The notes beneath the pieces were generated by a model. It had not been told where the DNA came from and ran no database searches. It was given only the letters and a program-made list of their open reading frames with translations. This document shows positions 2 through 11,193 of a stretch of 23,691 bases of DNA, one piece after another (the first letter of the stretch is position 1; each line of letters begins with the position of its first letter). Location: positions 1 through 23,691 of IMG/VR virus record IMGVR_UViG_3300014501_000188. One strand, given 5' to 3'. The position numbers were made by a program, and so were the translations under genes. The stretch is from a virus.

Positions 2-1333
2 CTTTATGTTTGCGGCACCCAGGACCAGGCCGATGAACACGTGCAATCGATTGGAACACTACTTGAAGGGATGGGGATTGAAAGGGCGCTAACCAGGTAT
101 GGAAACTCGAAGGGATGGCGCCACAACCGGTTAAGAACCAAGGGTGGATTTAACATTGCCGCTTACGGTCTTGACGTTGCTTCGCGCGGAATCAAAATCG
201 ATCACTACCGGCCTGATCTGATTATCTTTGACGATATTGACGAGGGAACGGACACTCCGGACAAGACCGCTAAGAAAATCGACGCCATCACTAATAAAGT
301 GCTCGGAACGGGGTCGGTTGATTTTGATGTTCTGGTCGTTCAAAACCTCATCCATGAGAATTCCGTCGTTTCTCAGCTTTCGGACGGGCGCGCGGGCTTT
401 TTGCTTAATAGAGTCTGTCACGAGCCTGAACCGGCCGTTCGCAACCTTGTAACTGAAGAATATACGGCGGCTAATGGCAGTCGACAGATACGGATTTTAA
501 GCGGCGAACCCACCTGGGAAGGCCAAAGCCTTGCGGTTTGCGAAAGGACCCTCAATAAGCTCGGGATGCGAGCATTCAAGATTGAGTGTCAGCAGGAAGT
601 TAAGGGCGCCGGTGGTTTCTTCTTCGATGAAAAACGCCTAGAAGCCTGGAGCGGCGAACTGCCTCGTCTTATCCGGTTCTGCAGGGCTTGGGACCTAGCG
701 GCCACTGAAGGCGGGGGGGATTATACGGTTGGCGTTCTGATGGGTCTTGCGCCGAACGGGATGCTTTTTGTGCTGGATGTGATCAGAATTCAGTTTGAAT
801 CTCACAAGGTCAGAAAGTTAGTCGATGATATCGCCGATTTGGATAAAGAGTTATGGGGCGATGTTAAAGTTCGTCTTCCTCAGGATCCAAGCCAAGCAGG
901 AAAGGACCAGGCGCGGAGTTATAACAATCTTCTGGCTGATAGCGACCACATCATTAAAGGCGTTCGGGGCAAGAAGGCTAAGCGGTCTGAGAATTGGCAG
1001 GATAAAGTCAATGGCGGAAACGCAAAACTTTTCCTTGCACCCGGCTATGAAGAATTTAAAACGGTTCGAAAAATCCCACTGGATTGGTTTTTCACCTTCC
1101 GGGAAGAGCATCGGCTTTTCAGGGAAGACGAGAAGCATGAATATGACGACCAGGTGGACGCAAGCGCTGACTGCGCAAATGAGTTAGTGGGCGGCAACTC
1201 AAAGTTTATATCGAGCTCAGCGCAACAGACGAACGCAAGCAATGTGCGGACAACCGTCCCGGTTGGGCTAAGAAGGGTTGAAGCGGCCACGCCGACTAAG
1301 CAGAACGAAGGAAGGTTGATTGTAAGAAGATGA
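2..1333 (+). CDS. terL: Phage terminase large subunit, 5' end cut off by window
   Basis: This is the ATP-driven motor that packages DNA and cuts the concatemer. The frame is open from base 2, so the N-terminus with the Walker A loop lies outside the window; the GTG at 41 is internal and not a believable start. A Walker B-like strand DLIIFDDID is coded at about 215-241. The C-terminal RNase H-like nuclease begins near base 670 with RAWDLAAT, followed by GGDYTVGVLMG, the acidic QDPSQAGKDQ near 881, and EYDDQVDA near 1139. These place the metal-binding aspartates as in the family described as TIGR01630/Terminase_6C. The stop overlaps the portal start by 4 bases (ATGA), suggesting translational coupling. 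What is seen is the motif series; the packaging role comes from the family. Sure of the family; the packaging strategy (cos, pac or other) cannot be read from this. Confidence 0.93.
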   Translation, partial: LYVCGTQDQADEHVQSIGTLLEGMGIERALTRYGNSKGWRHNRLRTKGGFNIAAYGLDVASRGIKIDHYRPDLIIFDDIDEGTDTPDKTAKKIDAITNKVLGTGSVDFDVLVVQNLIHENSVVSQLSDGRAGFLLNRVCHEPEPAVRNLVTEEYTAANGSRQIRILSGEPTWEGQSLAVCERTLNKLGMRAFKIECQQEVKGAGGFFFDEKRLEAWSGELPRLIRFCRAWDLAATEGGGDYTVGVLMGLAPNGMLFVLDVIRIQFESHKVRKLVDDIADLDKELWGDVKVRLPQDPSQAGKDQARSYNNLLADSDHIIKGVRGKKAKRSENWQDKVNGGNAKLFLAPGYEEFKTVRKIPLDWFFTFREEHRLFREDEKHEYDDQVDASADCANELVGGNSKFISSSAQQTNASNVRTTVPVGLRRVEAATPTKQNEGRLIVRR

Positions 1334-2906: not shown

Positions 2907-3260
2907 ATGATACGAACACTCTTAGAGCCATTAGGCATAAAAATCGTCCTCAAGCCACTTGATCCGATCGCAAAGACGGAAGGTGGCATCTACATTCCGG
3001 AGTCCGCACAGGAAATGCAGCAGGAAGCTGTTGTTTTGGCGGTGGGGTCTGGCAAGTTCGATCATGGCTCCTTTGTCATTCCAGAAGTGAAGCCCGGAGA
3101 CATAGTGCTATTCAGCAAGTTTGCAGGTGCCGAAGCCGAAATTGACGGCATGAAGGTCCGGATCACCACCGAAGATCACATTTTAGCAAGGATCAAGAAG
3201 GTTGAGGTAGAAGACCCAACTGAAGATATCCAGGACCGAGAACCGGCCCTGACTAAGTAA
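2907..3260 (+). CDS. GroES-like co-chaperonin (Cpn10 family)
   Basis: This 117-residue protein has the full co-chaperonin plan. It opens with LGIKIVLKPLDP (residues 9-20), matching the first strand of GroES. A mobile loop KTEGGIYIPESA (23-34) carries the hydrophobic triplet IYI, where GroES has IVL to dock on GroEL. AVVLAVGSGK (41-50) follows, then VKPGDIVLFSKFAG (61-74), and HILARIKK near residue 91 closes the fold. The family caps the GroEL ring. Phage versions such as T4 gp31 let host GroEL fold the capsid protein. The gene starts two bases after the portal stop and sits inside the head operon, which fits a role in folding the large capsid precursor. The last 20 residues (EDPTEDIQDREPALTK and nearby) are an acidic tail beyond the usual family end. 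No GroEL gene is seen, so the partner would be the host chaperonin. Confidence 0.9.
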   Translation: MIRTLLEPLGIKIVLKPLDPIAKTEGGIYIPESAQEMQQEAVVLAVGSGKFDHGSFVIPEVKPGDIVLFSKFAGAEAEIDGMKVRITTEDHILARIKKVEVEDPTEDIQDREPALTK

Positions 3261-5642: not shown

Positions 5643-6380
5643 ATGAGTGAAAACGGACGAACATCCATGTTCGCCACGCTAGAGGCGGGCGGCAAGCATA
5701 ACGAGAATATCGATGCTACAACCGCCCGCCTCATTGAGGCGGGTTCATGGAAAGACCAGAAGATTGTCGTGATTGTGCCGGCTGCATCTATGGTGCATGC
5801 TAAAGTTGCAATCTGCTGGATGAACCTCGCATTTCCGCCCAACCAGGCGCGGGTTCCATTTCTGGCGCAAGGGACCGAGGTCGGAGAGGCGTATTCGATC
5901 GCCATCGAGGCAGTTCTCGGCCACCCCGACCTTAGCCAGTGGCCTTATATTTTGACAGTCGAACACGATAACGTTCCGCCGCCGTTTGCTGTTATCGACC
6001 TGTTAAAGGCGATGGAAGAGCATCCGGAATACGACTGCATCAGTGGGCTCTATTTTACGAAAGGCGAAGGCGGCTGCGCTCAGATTTGGGGCAACCCGAT
6101 GGAAACGCCTCTTAGTTTCAAGCCCCAACCTCCGAAGGCGAACGAGATCGTGGAGTGTTGCGGAACGGGCATGGGCTTTGCGCTGTGGCGTATGTCCATG
6201 TTCAAGGACGAACGATTAGCTAGGCCGCTTTTTAAGACCAAGCAGGGCGAAGCTGATGGCGGACTTGGTACACAAGATTTGGCGTTCTGGGCAGAAGCCA
6301 GAAAATACGGCTACCGGTGCGCGGTTGACTGCCGCGTGAAAGTTGGCCACATCGATACAAAGACAGGAGAGATTTGGTGA
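5643..6380 (+). CDS. Glycosyltransferase, GT-A fold, family 2-like
   Basis: This is predicted to move a sugar from a nucleotide donor to a phage or host acceptor. The 245-residue protein shows a GT-A layout. An opening strand KIVVIVPAA (residues 40-48) leads to a nucleotide-binding half ending in ILTVEHDNVPP (103-113), where E-x-D stands in for the metal-binding DxD. CDCISGLYF-type strand residues follow near 130-138, then CCGTGMGFALWR (172-183). GTQDLAFWAEARKYGY (209-224) supplies a candidate catalytic Asp, and VGHID (234-238) a late metal-binding His. The stop overlaps the methyltransferase start by 4 bases, so the two are cotranslated. Phages use such enzymes to modify virion proteins, DNA bases or host surface sugars; the position next to a surface-type protein favours the first. 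The acceptor cannot be known from sequence. Confidence 0.78.
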   Translation: MSENGRTSMFATLEAGGKHNENIDATTARLIEAGSWKDQKIVVIVPAASMVHAKVAICWMNLAFPPNQARVPFLAQGTEVGEAYSIAIEAVLGHPDLSQWPYILTVEHDNVPPPFAVIDLLKAMEEHPEYDCISGLYFTKGEGGCAQIWGNPMETPLSFKPQPPKANEIVECCGTGMGFALWRMSMFKDERLARPLFKTKQGEADGGLGTQDLAFWAEARKYGYRCAVDCRVKVGHIDTKTGEIW

Positions 6381-6988
6381 TAGAAGCAGAAGACAGAAAC
6401 CTCGTAATGAGTCCAGGGATCATCGAAGTAGCGAAGGCTTTGAAGATTGACCTTGGCTGTGGCAAGAACCGTAAGCCCGCTGATTGGGTTGGGGTTGATT
6501 CGATCCAGTTTGAAGGAGTTGACCAGGTTGTGGACTTAACAGGTCCTTGGCCATGGGCGGATAACTCGGTCGATGAAGCAAACGCAAGCCACATCATTGA
6601 GCACTTCACGCCAGAGCAAAGGTGCCACTTTGTAAACGAGCTTTGGCGTGTGCTAAAACCGGGCGCGAAAGCCTCCATTATTTGCCCCAACTGGGCGTCG
6701 AATAGAGCTTACGGGGATCCGACCCACCAATGGCCGCCCGTCTCTGATTTTTGGCTGCTCTATCTGAATAAGAAGTGGCGGATCGAGCAAGCGCCCCATA
6801 CCGACTCCTCAGTTTTACCCTGGGGATTCGCCTGTAACTTCCACGTTCAAAACGGCTTCAATATTGACGATGAGACGGTGATGAAGAGTGACGAAGCGCG
6901 GGTTCTGCGGATGAGCCACTACATCAATACCTGCATGGACTTGGTGGCGACGTTCACCAAGCTTGAAGCCGATAACCTAGTCTTCTAA
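6377..6988 (+). CDS. SAM-dependent methyltransferase, class I
   Basis: This 203-residue protein has the Rossmann methyltransferase motifs in order. Motif I is KIDLGCGKNRKP (about 23-34), which binds S-adenosylmethionine. Next come WVGVDSI (37-43) with the acidic residue at the end of strand 2, and ANASHIIEHF (68-77), as in Methyltransf_11 proteins. LWRVLKPGAKASIICP (89-104) follows, a hallmark of small-molecule and sugar methyltransferases. I chose the GTG at 6377 because it overlaps the upstream stop (GTGA) and lies 8 bases after AGGAG; a TTG at 6374 is the alternative. Pairing with a glycosyltransferase suggests it caps or modifies the added sugar. There is no NPPY or similar DNA-methylase motif, so DNA methylation is unlikely. 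Confidence 0.82.
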   Translation: MIEAEDRNLVMSPGIIEVAKALKIDLGCGKNRKPADWVGVDSIQFEGVDQVVDLTGPWPWADNSVDEANASHIIEHFTPEQRCHFVNELWRVLKPGAKASIICPNWASNRAYGDPTHQWPPVSDFWLLYLNKKWRIEQAPHTDSSVLPWGFACNFHVQNGFNIDDETVMKSDEARVLRMSHYINTCMDLVATFTKLEADNLVF

Positions 6989-7062: not shown

Positions 7063-10000
7063 ATGGCAGATTTAACAGCTAAAGACCGAAAGGACATCTC
7101 CAGCGAGGAGTTTGCGGTTCCTCCGAAGGACGGCAAGCCTGGCGCTTATCCGGTTCCAGATAAGGAGCATGCGGCACTTGCGAAGTCCGGGGCATCTCAC
7201 GCGGAGCACGTCGGCAACATCTCTAAGTCCGAAGAAGAGGAGATCGATAAGAAAGCCGACGAGGTTTTGGCCGATGAAGCGGTTGACCTTGCTGCGCACG
7301 AAGCGGCCACGTCGACCATGAACGATAAGGCTTCCCCATCGGATGCGCAACTTATGGCCGGGAACTACCAGAAAGGTCACATTAAAGTTGGGCCGCTTCA
7401 TATCTCGGTTGAGAATCCATCGGGATCGCGCCGAAGGCAGGAATGGCCACCCCTTAGCGACCATTACGGCTATATCAAGGGCACGAAGGGGCACGATAAG
7501 GACCACATTGACGCCTTTGTGAAGCCCGGAACGGATGAGGACCATCAAGGGCCAGTTCACGTCGTTAACCAGAACCACCCAGACGGCAGTTTTGATGAGC
7601 ACAAGGCGATGGTTGGATGGCCGGATGCTTCAACCGCTAAGGCGGGATATCTTTCGAATTACATGCCGAACCAAGAGCAGAACATTCACTCGGTGGTTTC
7701 AATGCCGATGGATGAGTTTCACGCTTGGGCCAAGAGTGATGCGCCTTCACAGGGGCCGTGCATGCCTGCGCAGCCTGTGGCGCATGCGGTAGCCGACTGT
7801 GAGTGCGGATGCGGCGGAAAGTGCCACGAAGTGGCTGTAGACGAAGAATTGGAGGTTGTTGCGGATTGCTTTGCTCCCGCTGAGTTCGAGATAGTTCAGG
7901 ACTCAGCCAGAGAAGGTGTTTTGGGCGTTGTTAAGCAGCCGATTACACGGGCGAACTTCAAGACCAAGAACGGCTACATCTACCGCAGCCCTGGCCCGCT
8001 TGATAAGGCTCTTGTCGAAGCTAACGACCGCTTTAAGCTAAAAACGATCCACACAGAAAAGCATCATCCCGCGCTGATTCAGGGTGCTTGCGATAGCAAT
8101 GGTTGCGGGCCAAAGTTTGCGAACAACTTCGCCAACGTGACCGGAACCCCTTTAAGGGTTGAAGGTCCGGACGCGGCCGGTTGGGTTTATGGCTACCGTG
8201 AGATTGTTGATAGCCCCGATGGGCGCTCAGTCTTCCAGGCGATTAAGGACGGGAAGCCGATGCCCGTTTCCGTGCGGTGGCTCTTCAAGGCAAACCCGCT
8301 AACCAAACAGCCCGACGTTTTACACCTTGTTACCTGGGATGACGTTCTTTCACCCGCAGTCCATGGAGCTGGCTCCATGGCTGTGATCATGGACGATTTT
8401 GAAGACCCTGGCAGCATGACCGACCCAAGACCCGAGGACAAAGACGGACTCGGCGAACCATTTTATGGTGTGAACCGCAACACCGTGAATCCATACGATT
8501 CGCATAACGCGAGTCCAGAAGTGGACAAGATAGCGGCGGACGCGAGTCCGGCAGTAGACGGCGCCTTAGAAGCGCATTCAAAAGGAAAACCAAAAATGAA
8601 CGAAACATTGAAAACCGTTCGCGCTTTTGTGACAGCGGCCACCACGGGCGCGCCTAAAGCCGAACTCTTAAAGACAGTCAAGGCGGCAACCGGAGCGATC
8701 CTGGATGCCTATAACGAAGGCGACCCCGAGGTGCCTGCGTATGTTAAGAGTCTTCTTAGCGGCTGCAAGGTCGTAGCGGATTCGATGGACGCCGCCTATC
8801 ACTCTGGCGTTAAGGGCCCGGTTGTCGAGCTTGGCAACATGATCGGTGCCGATCCTACAGTTGGATGGGGGCCTGACCTGCGGGATGTTCCAGACAACGA
8901 TAACAAGACGGAAATGCGAAATCTTCAGCAGAAGACTTCCACGGCCGTTAAGGGGCTGGAAATCACGGCTGACGAAGAGGCTCAGGCAGCGGAAACCAAG
9001 CGAGTGGAAGATGTTGAAGCCAAGATGGACGAGTTCATTCGCGGTGGTCACCCGATTTCGATGATGGACAAGGACATTCGCGGCCGAATCGCTGCTCACG
9101 TGAAGCGGGTTGCCAAGGATGCCGACGACGTGAAAGCAGTTCTGGACGAGGCGGTTAAGCCGTTCAGCCGCGATAGAGCGGTTGAGAACCTTATCGGACT
9201 TGGCTTTACAGGCGTGAACGTTCTGACCACGACCGTTACGGATGAGGCGAATCCCTCCAACGTGACGAACGTGCGAGAAGTTCGCCCTGGCATGGCAGCG
9301 GTTGACCGCTATCTTGCGGCAATGGACGAGAGTTTGAAGAAGGGCCCCATGGCAAACGATGGGCTTACCCCGAACTTTAACGATCCGTCGACCTTGACGC
9401 GAAGGACTTACAACCGAAGGGTGATGGATCCGATCCTTGATGAGTGTTTCGATATCCAGTACGGGACAACCGGCGGTCTTAACGCGATCTCCGATTCATC
9501 GGATCCATGGGATACGGTCACGAAGGAACTCAATGCGGTTGCCCAAGCTGACTCTTACACCTCGGCTCTTGCTCAGGTTCCGAACCAGCCGACCATCTAC
9601 CGGGCTATGCTCACTCAGGCATTCCAGGACCAAAAGGCGCTCAAGTTTGCTGGCGCGGTTGGACCGGGTCAAGCTGGGAAGGCTAGTTCAGGATGGGAAG
9701 TCAAGACAGGCTTTGGCCGCGTCTTTAAGGTTCCTTATGAGAGCTACACCGACCCGACGGCCTACGGCTTCCAATATGGCGGCTTAGACTTTGGGCTCAC
9801 AAACCCTGAGAACGCCGGCGTCTATGAGGGCACCGTTGATTATTTCTGGGATACATTCTTCCCCTTGTGGCGAAGCGTTGCAACCTCGTCCACGATCCAG
9901 GCAATCAAATCGATCGGCAACGGTCCTTTAAACCTCGATCTGAACGGACGCAACATTTGGCACTCTCAGGCAAGGAAGAGCCGGACCATCGACATGGGCA

Positions 10001-11193
10001 TCAGTAACGAGATGTTCCGCGTCGCTTTGGAGTATGCCGTTACCGCGAAAACCAACGAGACCTACACTTCTGGAAATAACGGACTGGCCAACCAGACAGT
10101 GTTTGGAAACGGCGCTTCGACGGTTGTTCCCGGCCAGGTGACAGCTTCCGTTATCGTGAACCTGAACCCAACCAAGATTGCAAGTGCGGCAGTTGCTTTC
10201 ACGAGCGGCGCGCCCACTGACGACTACGCCATCTATCCGAATCCCAACGTGACCCCTTCGGGCTCGGGTGTGATTCCGATTGGCGCGGTAAGACTGCTTG
10301 CGGGCGCTGCGGTCGGCGTCAACTCAGGGACCTACTTCGGAACCAACGGGCAATCGAAGAATCCTGTCGTTCCGCCTAGGGCTCAGCTCACGCTAACAAG
10401 CGGCGGCGCTGACTCGAACTCGACACTTAACCCGATTAGCGTTTCCGCTCCTGCCGGCGCGGTTCTAGGCTATCTTGGCAGCGACGGATATATCTATTCG
10501 TCTCCTGGCACGTCGGCCACCTATGCGGTTGACTATATGAACGGTGTTATCGTGTTCGCGTCGGGTGTTAGCCAGAACAGCAACGTTCTTGGAACAACTA
10601 TCACCGCCTCGTACAGCTATAGCACGAACTTTGACGTGTTCCCGCTGCAGCCTTCGATCAACGGACTCGCTGGCCTTGCAACCGGCGAAACGCCTCCTGC
10701 GTTTATGGCCCGGTTCCTTGCCCAGTTCGACTTCACGGCTGGCAATATGGCGGCGTGGCCAAGATTCGTAGCTCCTGATATGGCGCTGATGTCCACGACA
10801 ATCAGCCCCAACATCACGGAGGCGACGACCTTCTATAAGCTGAACTCACCTGATGGTACAGACCTGTATCCAGATGAGGAGTTCTTTGCGATCCGCAATG
10901 GCGTTGCGATGGCCAGGACCAATACTCCTTTGTTCGTCGGCGACACGGGCATCCTTCTTACGAGACGGTTCAGCACGAAATACGTGATTGACACGCCTTA
11001 CGAGACAAGGGGCCCGGTTGTGAAGTACGACTCGAACGGAAACGTTATTCCCGGAGAGGCCTACTACGGCGCTGAGAACTCGGCTATCTGCACTCCGCAG
11101 GTGAAGAACTCAGTCGGCACGCTCATCAACCCTGTCGGACGCATTCTGCTTACGCTTCAAGGCGGAAAGCAGTCTTGTGGCCTTCCTAACTAG
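7063..11193 (+). CDS. Capsid polyprotein: pyrophosphatase-like domain, maturation protease, scaffold, major capsid protein
   Basis: One unbroken frame of 1376 residues. Residues 1-95 are acidic and disordered. Residues 100-225 match the InPase domain of phage polyvalent proteins: VENPSG, YGYIKGT, then D145-x-D147-x-x-D150 and FDEHK, like family I pyrophosphatases. A Cys cluster follows (C233, C246, C248, C250, C254). Residues 275-445 resemble T4 gp21 prohead protease: NGYIY (303-307), EKHHP with the likely catalytic His near 334-335, and PVSVRW with likely Ser403. Residues 455-740 are charged and helical, as scaffolds are. The rest fits an HK97-fold capsid protein, with a Gly/Ser/Thr-rich beta insertion at about 1000-1190. 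Normally these are two to four genes. An in-frame ATG with its own ribosome binding site (8596) may also make a shorter scaffold-capsid product. Candidate gp21-type cleavage points (L-x-E) are 463-465 and 694-696. Domain calls are by motif only. Confidence 0.82.
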   Translation: MADLTAKDRKDISSEEFAVPPKDGKPGAYPVPDKEHAALAKSGASHAEHVGNISKSEEEEIDKKADEVLADEAVDLAAHEAATSTMNDKASPSDAQLMAGNYQKGHIKVGPLHISVENPSGSRRRQEWPPLSDHYGYIKGTKGHDKDHIDAFVKPGTDEDHQGPVHVVNQNHPDGSFDEHKAMVGWPDASTAKAGYLSNYMPNQEQNIHSVVSMPMDEFHAWAKSDAPSQGPCMPAQPVAHAVADCECGCGGKCHEVAVDEELEVVADCFAPAEFEIVQDSAREGVLGVVKQPITRANFKTKNGYIYRSPGPLDKALVEANDRFKLKTIHTEKHHPALIQGACDSNGCGPKFANNFANVTGTPLRVEGPDAAGWVYGYREIVDSPDGRSVFQAIKDGKPMPVSVRWLFKANPLTKQPDVLHLVTWDDVLSPAVHGAGSMAVIMDDFEDPGSMTDPRPEDKDGLGEPFYGVNRNTVNPYDSHNASPEVDKIAADASPAVDGALEAHSKGKPKMNETLKTVRAFVTAATTGAPKAELLKTVKAATGAILDAYNEGDPEVPAYVKSLLSGCKVVADSMDAAYHSGVKGPVVELGNMIGADPTVGWGPDLRDVPDNDNKTEMRNLQQKTSTAVKGLEITADEEAQAAETKRVEDVEAKMDEFIRGGHPISMMDKDIRGRIAAHVKRVAKDADDVKAVLDEAVKPFSRDRAVENLIGLGFTGVNVLTTTVTDEANPSNVTNVREVRPGMAAVDRYLAAMDESLKKGPMANDGLTPNFNDPSTLTRRTYNRRVMDPILDECFDIQYGTTGGLNAISDSSDPWDTVTKELNAVAQADSYTSALAQVPNQPTIYRAMLTQAFQDQKALKFAGAVGPGQAGKASSGWEVKTGFGRVFKVPYESYTDPTAYGFQYGGLDFGLTNPENAGVYEGTVDYFWDTFFPLWRSVATSSTIQAIKSIGNGPLNLDLNGRNIWHSQARKSRTIDMGISNEMFRVALEYAVTAKTNETYTSGNNGLANQTVFGNGASTVVPGQVTASVIVNLNPTKIASAAVAFTSGAPTDDYAIYPNPNVTPSGSGVIPIGAVRLLAGAAVGVNSGTYFGTNGQSKNPVVPPRAQLTLTSGGADSNSTLNPISVSAPAGAVLGYLGSDGYIYSSPGTSATYAVDYMNGVIVFASGVSQNSNVLGTTITASYSYSTNFDVFPLQPSINGLAGLATGETPPAFMARFLAQFDFTAGNMAAWPRFVAPDMALMSTTISPNITEATTFYKLNSPDGTDLYPDEEFFAIRNGVAMARTNTPLFVGDTGILLTRRFSTKYVIDTPYETRGPVVKYDSNGNVIPGEAYYGAENSAICTPQVKNSVGTLINPVGRILLTLQGGKQSCGLPN
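8361..8380. repeat. Perfect inverted repeat inside the capsid precursor gene
   Basis: Two 9-base arms (CCATGGAGC and GCTCCATGG) separated by TG form a perfect palindrome-like hairpin within the protease-coding part, about 215 bases before the possible internal start. It encodes the His-Gly-Ala-Gly-Ser-Met stretch, so chance from codon choice is possible. Confidence 0.5.
8582..8598 (+). promoter_or_regulatory. Possible internal ribosome binding site and start (scaffold-capsid)
   Basis: AAGGA stands 9 bases before an ATG at 8596 that is in frame with the polyprotein (Met512). Initiation here would give an 865-residue scaffold plus capsid protein without the pyrophosphatase-like and protease parts. 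The sequence between is A-rich and so probably unstructured, which favours initiation. This resembles the nested starts of lambda C/Nu3, but use of the site is inferred. Confidence 0.4.

Follow-up and report, generated by a model that had tools for sequence, protein, structure and literature searches.

Can a single phage gene encode a pyrophosphatase, a maturation protease, a scaffold and a capsid protein, and if so, does every subunit of the shell begin with two enzyme domains? This question is raised by the open reading frame (ORF) at 7063-11193 (+) of a 23,691-nucleotide stretch of DNA comprising positions 1 to 23,691 of IMG/VR virus record IMGVR_UViG_3300014501_000188 (hereafter, the window), which is from a virus of bacteria or archaea. 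An examination of the letters and predicted ORFs without database searches (the sequence-only reading) had proposed that all four functions reside in this frame. Our analyses identify an InPase domain, a prohead protease and a capsid protein in the frame and suggest that most shell subunits probably do not carry the enzymes. The parts of the gene are as follows:

7063-11193 (+): whole polyprotein ORF, 1376 amino acids, with N-terminal module, InPase, protease, scaffold-like region and capsid
7063-7272 (+): N-terminal module, residues 1-70; phrog_16160, E = 5e-13; directly precedes the protease in relatives
7345-7734 (+): InPase domain, residues 95-224; PF18823; active-site residues kept
7798-7827 (+): cysteine cluster CECGCGGKCH in the InPase-protease linker, residues 246-255
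7858-8382 (+): predicted gp21/S77-type prohead protease, residues ~266-440; His335, Ser403
8582-8586 (+): candidate Shine-Dalgarno sequence AAGGA, weak at -5.6 kcal/mol
8596-8598 (+): candidate internal start ATG, Met512, for an 865-amino-acid scaffold-capsid product; relatives have a homologous site; ranked first of 69 for accessibility
8596-9462 (+): scaffold-like region, residues 512 to ~800; from position, helices in the modelled part and a weak phrog_3589 match
9493-11190 (+): predicted HK97-fold major capsid protein, residues ~811-1376; structure model matches

The frame begins with ATG and extends for 1376 codons with zero internal stops, which bears out its description as uninterrupted. 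GC content and GC content at third codon positions (GC3) are uniform across it (GC3 by domain 0.51-0.65), and codon usage of the InPase segment is ordinary (distance 0.48, with all 170-codon windows averaging 0.46). This uniformity therefore gives no hint of a chimera or a hidden frameshift in 7063-11193. Two relatives from IMG/VR, L007 (1062 amino acids) and L009 (1173 amino acids), likewise read through the protease-to-scaffold junction in a single frame. Together with the uniform composition, this does not indicate the error that had been feared near 8400-8600, where a stop or frameshift might have been concealed.

The InPase was the only Pfam match of the window protein at E-values up to 1, and the remaining parts were identified through relatives and structure. 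The match to PF18823 (polyvalent-type family I pyrophosphatase) spans residues 95-224 (E = 5e-36; 123.9 bits versus a curated cut-off of 26.8), nearly the residues 95-225 that had been anticipated. Ten active-site residues (E117, R124, Y135, Y137, D145, D147, D150, D178, E179 and K181) are conserved between the window and eight phage InPases, and the active site of the domain therefore looks intact; the four conserved acidic residues D145, D147, D150 and D178 are assigned to the metal site by analogy. The sole PDB sequence match of the domain was the portal protein gp19 of 9b41 (E = 1e-17), and InPase forms the C-terminus of Pbunavirus portals. In the cryo-electron microscopy study of Pa193, portal residues 529-765, a range that spans the InPase match, were not visible in the density (PMC11042391), as would be expected of a flexible InPase appendage. 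The same InPase group was reported by Iyer et al. (2017) from polyvalent proteins and from the portal of BcepF1, with portals but no major capsid protein named as carriers; the authors proposed that the InPase is packaged in the virion, injected, and acts on pyrophosphate or nucleotide-like compounds (PMC5512222).

In annotated phage records, we identified InPase in portals and minor head proteins, in an internal head protein, in stand-alone genes and in very large proteins. The InPase portals (BcepF1.124; Pa193 gp19, PDB 9b41) resemble the window protein in that the same InPase family is joined to a head structural protein. However, the domain there is on the portal, C-terminal in Pa193, whereas in the window it is N-terminal on a protease-capsid polyprotein. 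The phage polyvalent proteins described by Iyer et al. (2017) carry the same type of InPase but are mostly far larger, multi-domain, and without the capsid domain used here.

The protease was recognized indirectly. PF03420 gave no match for the window protein itself at E-values up to 1, and the proposed gp21-like identity stands instead on homology to L007 and on the fold of T4 gp21. The window protease aligns to that of L007 (E = 5e-19), for which the Peptidase_S77 match is sub-threshold (E = 9e-5); PF03420 was matched at E <= 0.01 by 10 of 33 aligned relatives, and L007 provides the link between these and the window. In window numbering, H335 and S403 are identical in 18/18 aligned S77-type members, and E332 and D426 are also conserved. 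When the protease model (mean predicted local distance difference test score, pLDDT, 60.5) was compared to known structures with Foldseek, T4 gp21 (5jbl chains) ranked 1-3 (best E = 0.011, probability 0.95), and in VIA T4 gp21 was again first (Z 7.7, root-mean-square deviation 3.8 over 126 residues). Many herpesvirus capsid proteases were among the next VIA matches (Z 3.4-5.1). Because unrelated folds score similar Z values, the assignment rests on the gp21 match and the sequence evidence. Collectively, these data firmly predict that residues ~266-440 are a gp21-type serine prohead protease with putative catalytic His and Ser, which it shares, along with the protease fold, with the T4 gp21 (S77) prohead protease; in T4, the capsid protein differs in being a separate gene.

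The structure model also firmly predicts that residues ~811-1376 are an HK97-fold capsid protein. The top 50 Foldseek matches were all capsid structures, and Z-scores were 16.5 to 8em6 and 13.3 and 13.7 to HK97 (1ohg and 2gp1), with a mean pLDDT of 62.7. The intervening stretch (residues 512-~800) is predicted to be mostly helical from residue 700 on and yielded a marginal match to phrog_3589 (E = 0.011). Accordingly, three of the four functions proposed for the frame were recovered, two of them with the support of structure prediction, while the fourth could be placed as scaffold-like only by position and predicted helices.

Searching with the part behind the InPase (tblastn) retrieved Brevibacillus phage Emery gp6, a Microcystis phage protein and, from plasmid records of Brevibacillus and Aneurinibacillus, three head regions, each of the five being a single ORF of 848-1006 amino acids. 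The whole window protein, or its protease part alone, yielded no confirmed close relative among viral contigs, and further relatives were gathered by capsid alignments from IMG/VR and genome contigs. This resulted in 91 ORFs that combine a prohead protease with this capsid, 42 of which were non-redundant (ORFs >=70% identical removed); their proteases were of two types, S77/gp21-type and Mu-I-type. On the basis of these ORFs, the joining of protease, scaffold and capsid in a single ORF is the rule in this capsid family. An InPase was present in 1/91, that of the window, and none of ~100 other InPase ORFs checked, mostly from IMG/VR, had this capsid, such that no second InPase-capsid polyprotein was found in either set. 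A 911-amino-acid ORF with an N-terminal InPase (L150:5974-8706) was considered as a second case and ruled out, since its remainder matches phrog_5880 (E = 3e-73) and not this capsid. The genomes or records available for L007, L008, L009, L050 and L044 likewise yielded no InPase, a result of little weight given that control genomes were negative too.

The closest relatives of the window polyprotein are those of L007, L009 and L164/L165/L167, none with an InPase. Those of Emery gp6 (phrog_22848) and Paenibacillaceae prophages likewise combine a gp21-type protease and a scaffold-like region with a capsid of the same family in a single ORF, with a strong internal Shine-Dalgarno sequence at the junction, but differ in having another N-terminal region before the protease and no InPase. 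Among other three-part genes, the capsid gene of Gifsy-2 is said to consist of protease, scaffold and coat, with a protease that is reportedly ClpP-like rather than gp21-like, and it is not known to have an InPase. The sequence-only reading had held that phages normally place the four functions in separate genes and that an InPase-type domain at the head of a protease-capsid protein is not a described standard. Only the InPase is unusual, and not the protease-scaffold-capsid fusion, which is the family rule and for which the title of Effantin et al. (2010), 'tripartite capsid gene' of Gifsy-2, indicates a precedent (cited in PMC8538268).

How the InPase came to reside in this gene is suggested by the N-terminal module. 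A profile of the N-termini of L164, L165 and L167 matches window residues 1-70 (E = 1.5e-4; BLASTP to L164, E = 1e-6), and seven non-redundant relatives (L164, L165, L167, L170, L185, L188 and L194) share the module, directly followed by the protease with no InPase between. Because the parts that flank the InPase in the window adjoin each other in these relatives, the InPase looks to have been inserted near the N-terminus of a protease-scaffold-capsid gene. In L009, the position of module and InPase is taken by a ParB-like domain (L009:4988-5479; phrog_1033, E = 4e-6) N-terminal to the protease; the TTG start ahead of this domain has a strong Shine-Dalgarno sequence. We tentatively raise the idea, which we consider rather doubtful, that the N-terminus is a general cargo slot in which enzymes vary (InPase in the window, ParB-like in L009), are carried by a low-abundance full-length product, and are freed by the protease for injection.

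Whether every subunit would bear such cargo depends on where translation starts. In relatives, a start codon (ATG, GTG or TTG) with a Shine-Dalgarno sequence follows the protease, for example ccaaggaggatgataaaATG in Emery. We compared all start codons past residue 60. The strongest internal Shine-Dalgarno sequence fell within the junction region in 22 of the 26 non-redundant, mutually related S77-type sequences, against an expectation of 6.4, and none of 200,000 draws gave as many. The region is broad (up to 220 residues), and a few counted sites, as in L011, are not the homologous codon. An earlier pooled count gave 19/35 (8.1 expected, P = 7e-5). Junction Shine-Dalgarno sequences are also stronger than synonymous codons would predict (mean z -1.3 over 30 loci). 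The window and L009 are exceptions to the pattern of strong Shine-Dalgarno sequences. Nevertheless, the sequence at Met512 (AAGGA, -5.6 kcal/mol) compares with -3.5 kcal/mol at the gene's own start, and among 69 start codons in the frame Met512 ranks first for mRNA accessibility. Two translation products are thus supported for the S77-type family by sequence comparison, and we infer the same two for the window. The claim that every capsid subunit begins with two enzyme domains is therefore probably wrong; the sequence-only reading had itself left room for internal starts. An in-frame internal start that yields a protease-free scaffold product is familiar from the nested lambda genes C/Nu3, although the lambda capsid protein is a separate gene. 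Separately, in L161, L162, L164, L165, L166, L167 and L171 the linker that separates the protease from the internal start contains zinc-ribbon-like paired cysteine motifs.

The account that we favour, and regard as fairly probable, is that of a tripartite head gene with an inserted InPase and two starts, in which a minor full-length chain carries the InPase into the prohead and the InPase is retained and injected. Translation from the ATG at 7063 would yield the full-length 1376-amino-acid form, while the internal ATG at 8596 would yield the 865-amino-acid form that would make up most shell subunits. A few full-length chains would co-assemble with their N-termini toward the prohead interior, placing protease and InPase inside, and at maturation the protease would cut itself, the scaffold and the linkers to leave the mature shell. 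The freed InPase would then stay in the filled head and, as has been suggested for portal InPase domains, be delivered along with the DNA into the cell, where it would hydrolyse pyrophosphate or a nucleotide-like signal. Retention and injection, by analogy the most likely fate of the InPase, is the least certain part of this account.

Several observations weigh against it. The Mu-type group has no junction excess (4/16 versus 3.7 expected), and the relatedness of the 26 S77-type sequences means that the test is not fully independent and its P values are optimistic. The Shine-Dalgarno sequence at Met512 ranks 12 of 69 and is not significant relative to synonymous codons (0.16), and the best one in the tested junction region is at Met439 (the ORF being numbered 15 higher in that test). 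Both structure models are of moderate confidence, a scan of the polyprotein for gp21-like cleavage motifs returned too many candidates to name a site, and maturation could destroy or release the InPase. Finally, the InPase-bearing polyprotein is a single one, known from sequence alone.

If there were no internal start, every subunit would be the full 1376-amino-acid chain, from which fast self-cleavage would remove module, InPase and protease, with InPase and shell one-to-one. The weak internal Shine-Dalgarno sequence of the window and a gene that is open end to end are consistent with this, but the strongly marked junction start in 22/26 S77-type relatives and the conservation and accessibility of the homologous window codon are not, and it seems unlikely that several hundred InPase-protease pairs would crowd one prohead; we thus consider it improbable. 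A possible, though still doubtful, alternative is that the InPase acts during assembly, in the cell or prohead, for instance as a folded spacer or in pyrophosphate removal, and that maturation then degrades or releases it, so that it is not injected. It adjoins the protease on a chain that should undergo processing, and some InPase genes stand alone near other genes; yet the same domain is joined to portals, which stay in the virion, and has been described chiefly in proteins that are presumed to be packaged (PMC5512222).

The occurrence of InPase in just 1/91 polyproteins might instead mean that the fusion is an accident of a single phage, recent or degenerating, with no head role. All active-site residues are kept and InPase codon usage agrees with the rest of the gene, which makes an accident decidedly unlikely. 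An assembly or sequencing artefact, by which a head gene and an unrelated InPase gene became joined, is conceivable for a single metagenomic contig but highly improbable given the continuous frame and uniform composition. Moreover, the module ahead of the InPase matches the N-termini of related polyproteins, and both flanks of the InPase therefore belong to the polyprotein gene. The two-start account with a packaged InPase remains the one that we favour.

Upstream of the polyprotein, the window has two further genes with homologues among the relatives, and L007 and L009 share with the window the terminase large subunit or portal plus a downstream gene:

41-1333 (+): terminase large subunit; phrog_38, E = 1e-34; homologue in L007
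1330-2904 (+): portal protein; phrog_64 and phrog_9232; homologues in L009 and L007

A GroES-like co-chaperonin (Cpn10, E = 7e-21) is encoded directly after the portal gene at 2907-3260. Between portal and polyprotein, 5643-6988 encodes two proteins, one weakly similar to a glycosyltransferase (phrog_12406, E = 0.005) and the other methyltransferase-like, for which no homologues were detected among ORFs of the fetched loci. In Emery, gp5 (L002:2137-4316) is annotated as a joined product that starts at the same place as gp4 (head morphogenesis); a programmed frameshift may underlie this annotation.

The novelty of the window gene is the InPase on this polyprotein and not the protease-scaffold-capsid fusion. 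A domain reported earlier on portals and polyvalent proteins is now found on a capsid polyprotein that has its own protease. If the two-product scheme is true, one gene would set both the copy number of protease and InPase in the head and the timing of their release. The finding also provides a testable reading for a family of fused head genes, most of whose members are listed as hypothetical proteins in phage and plasmid records.

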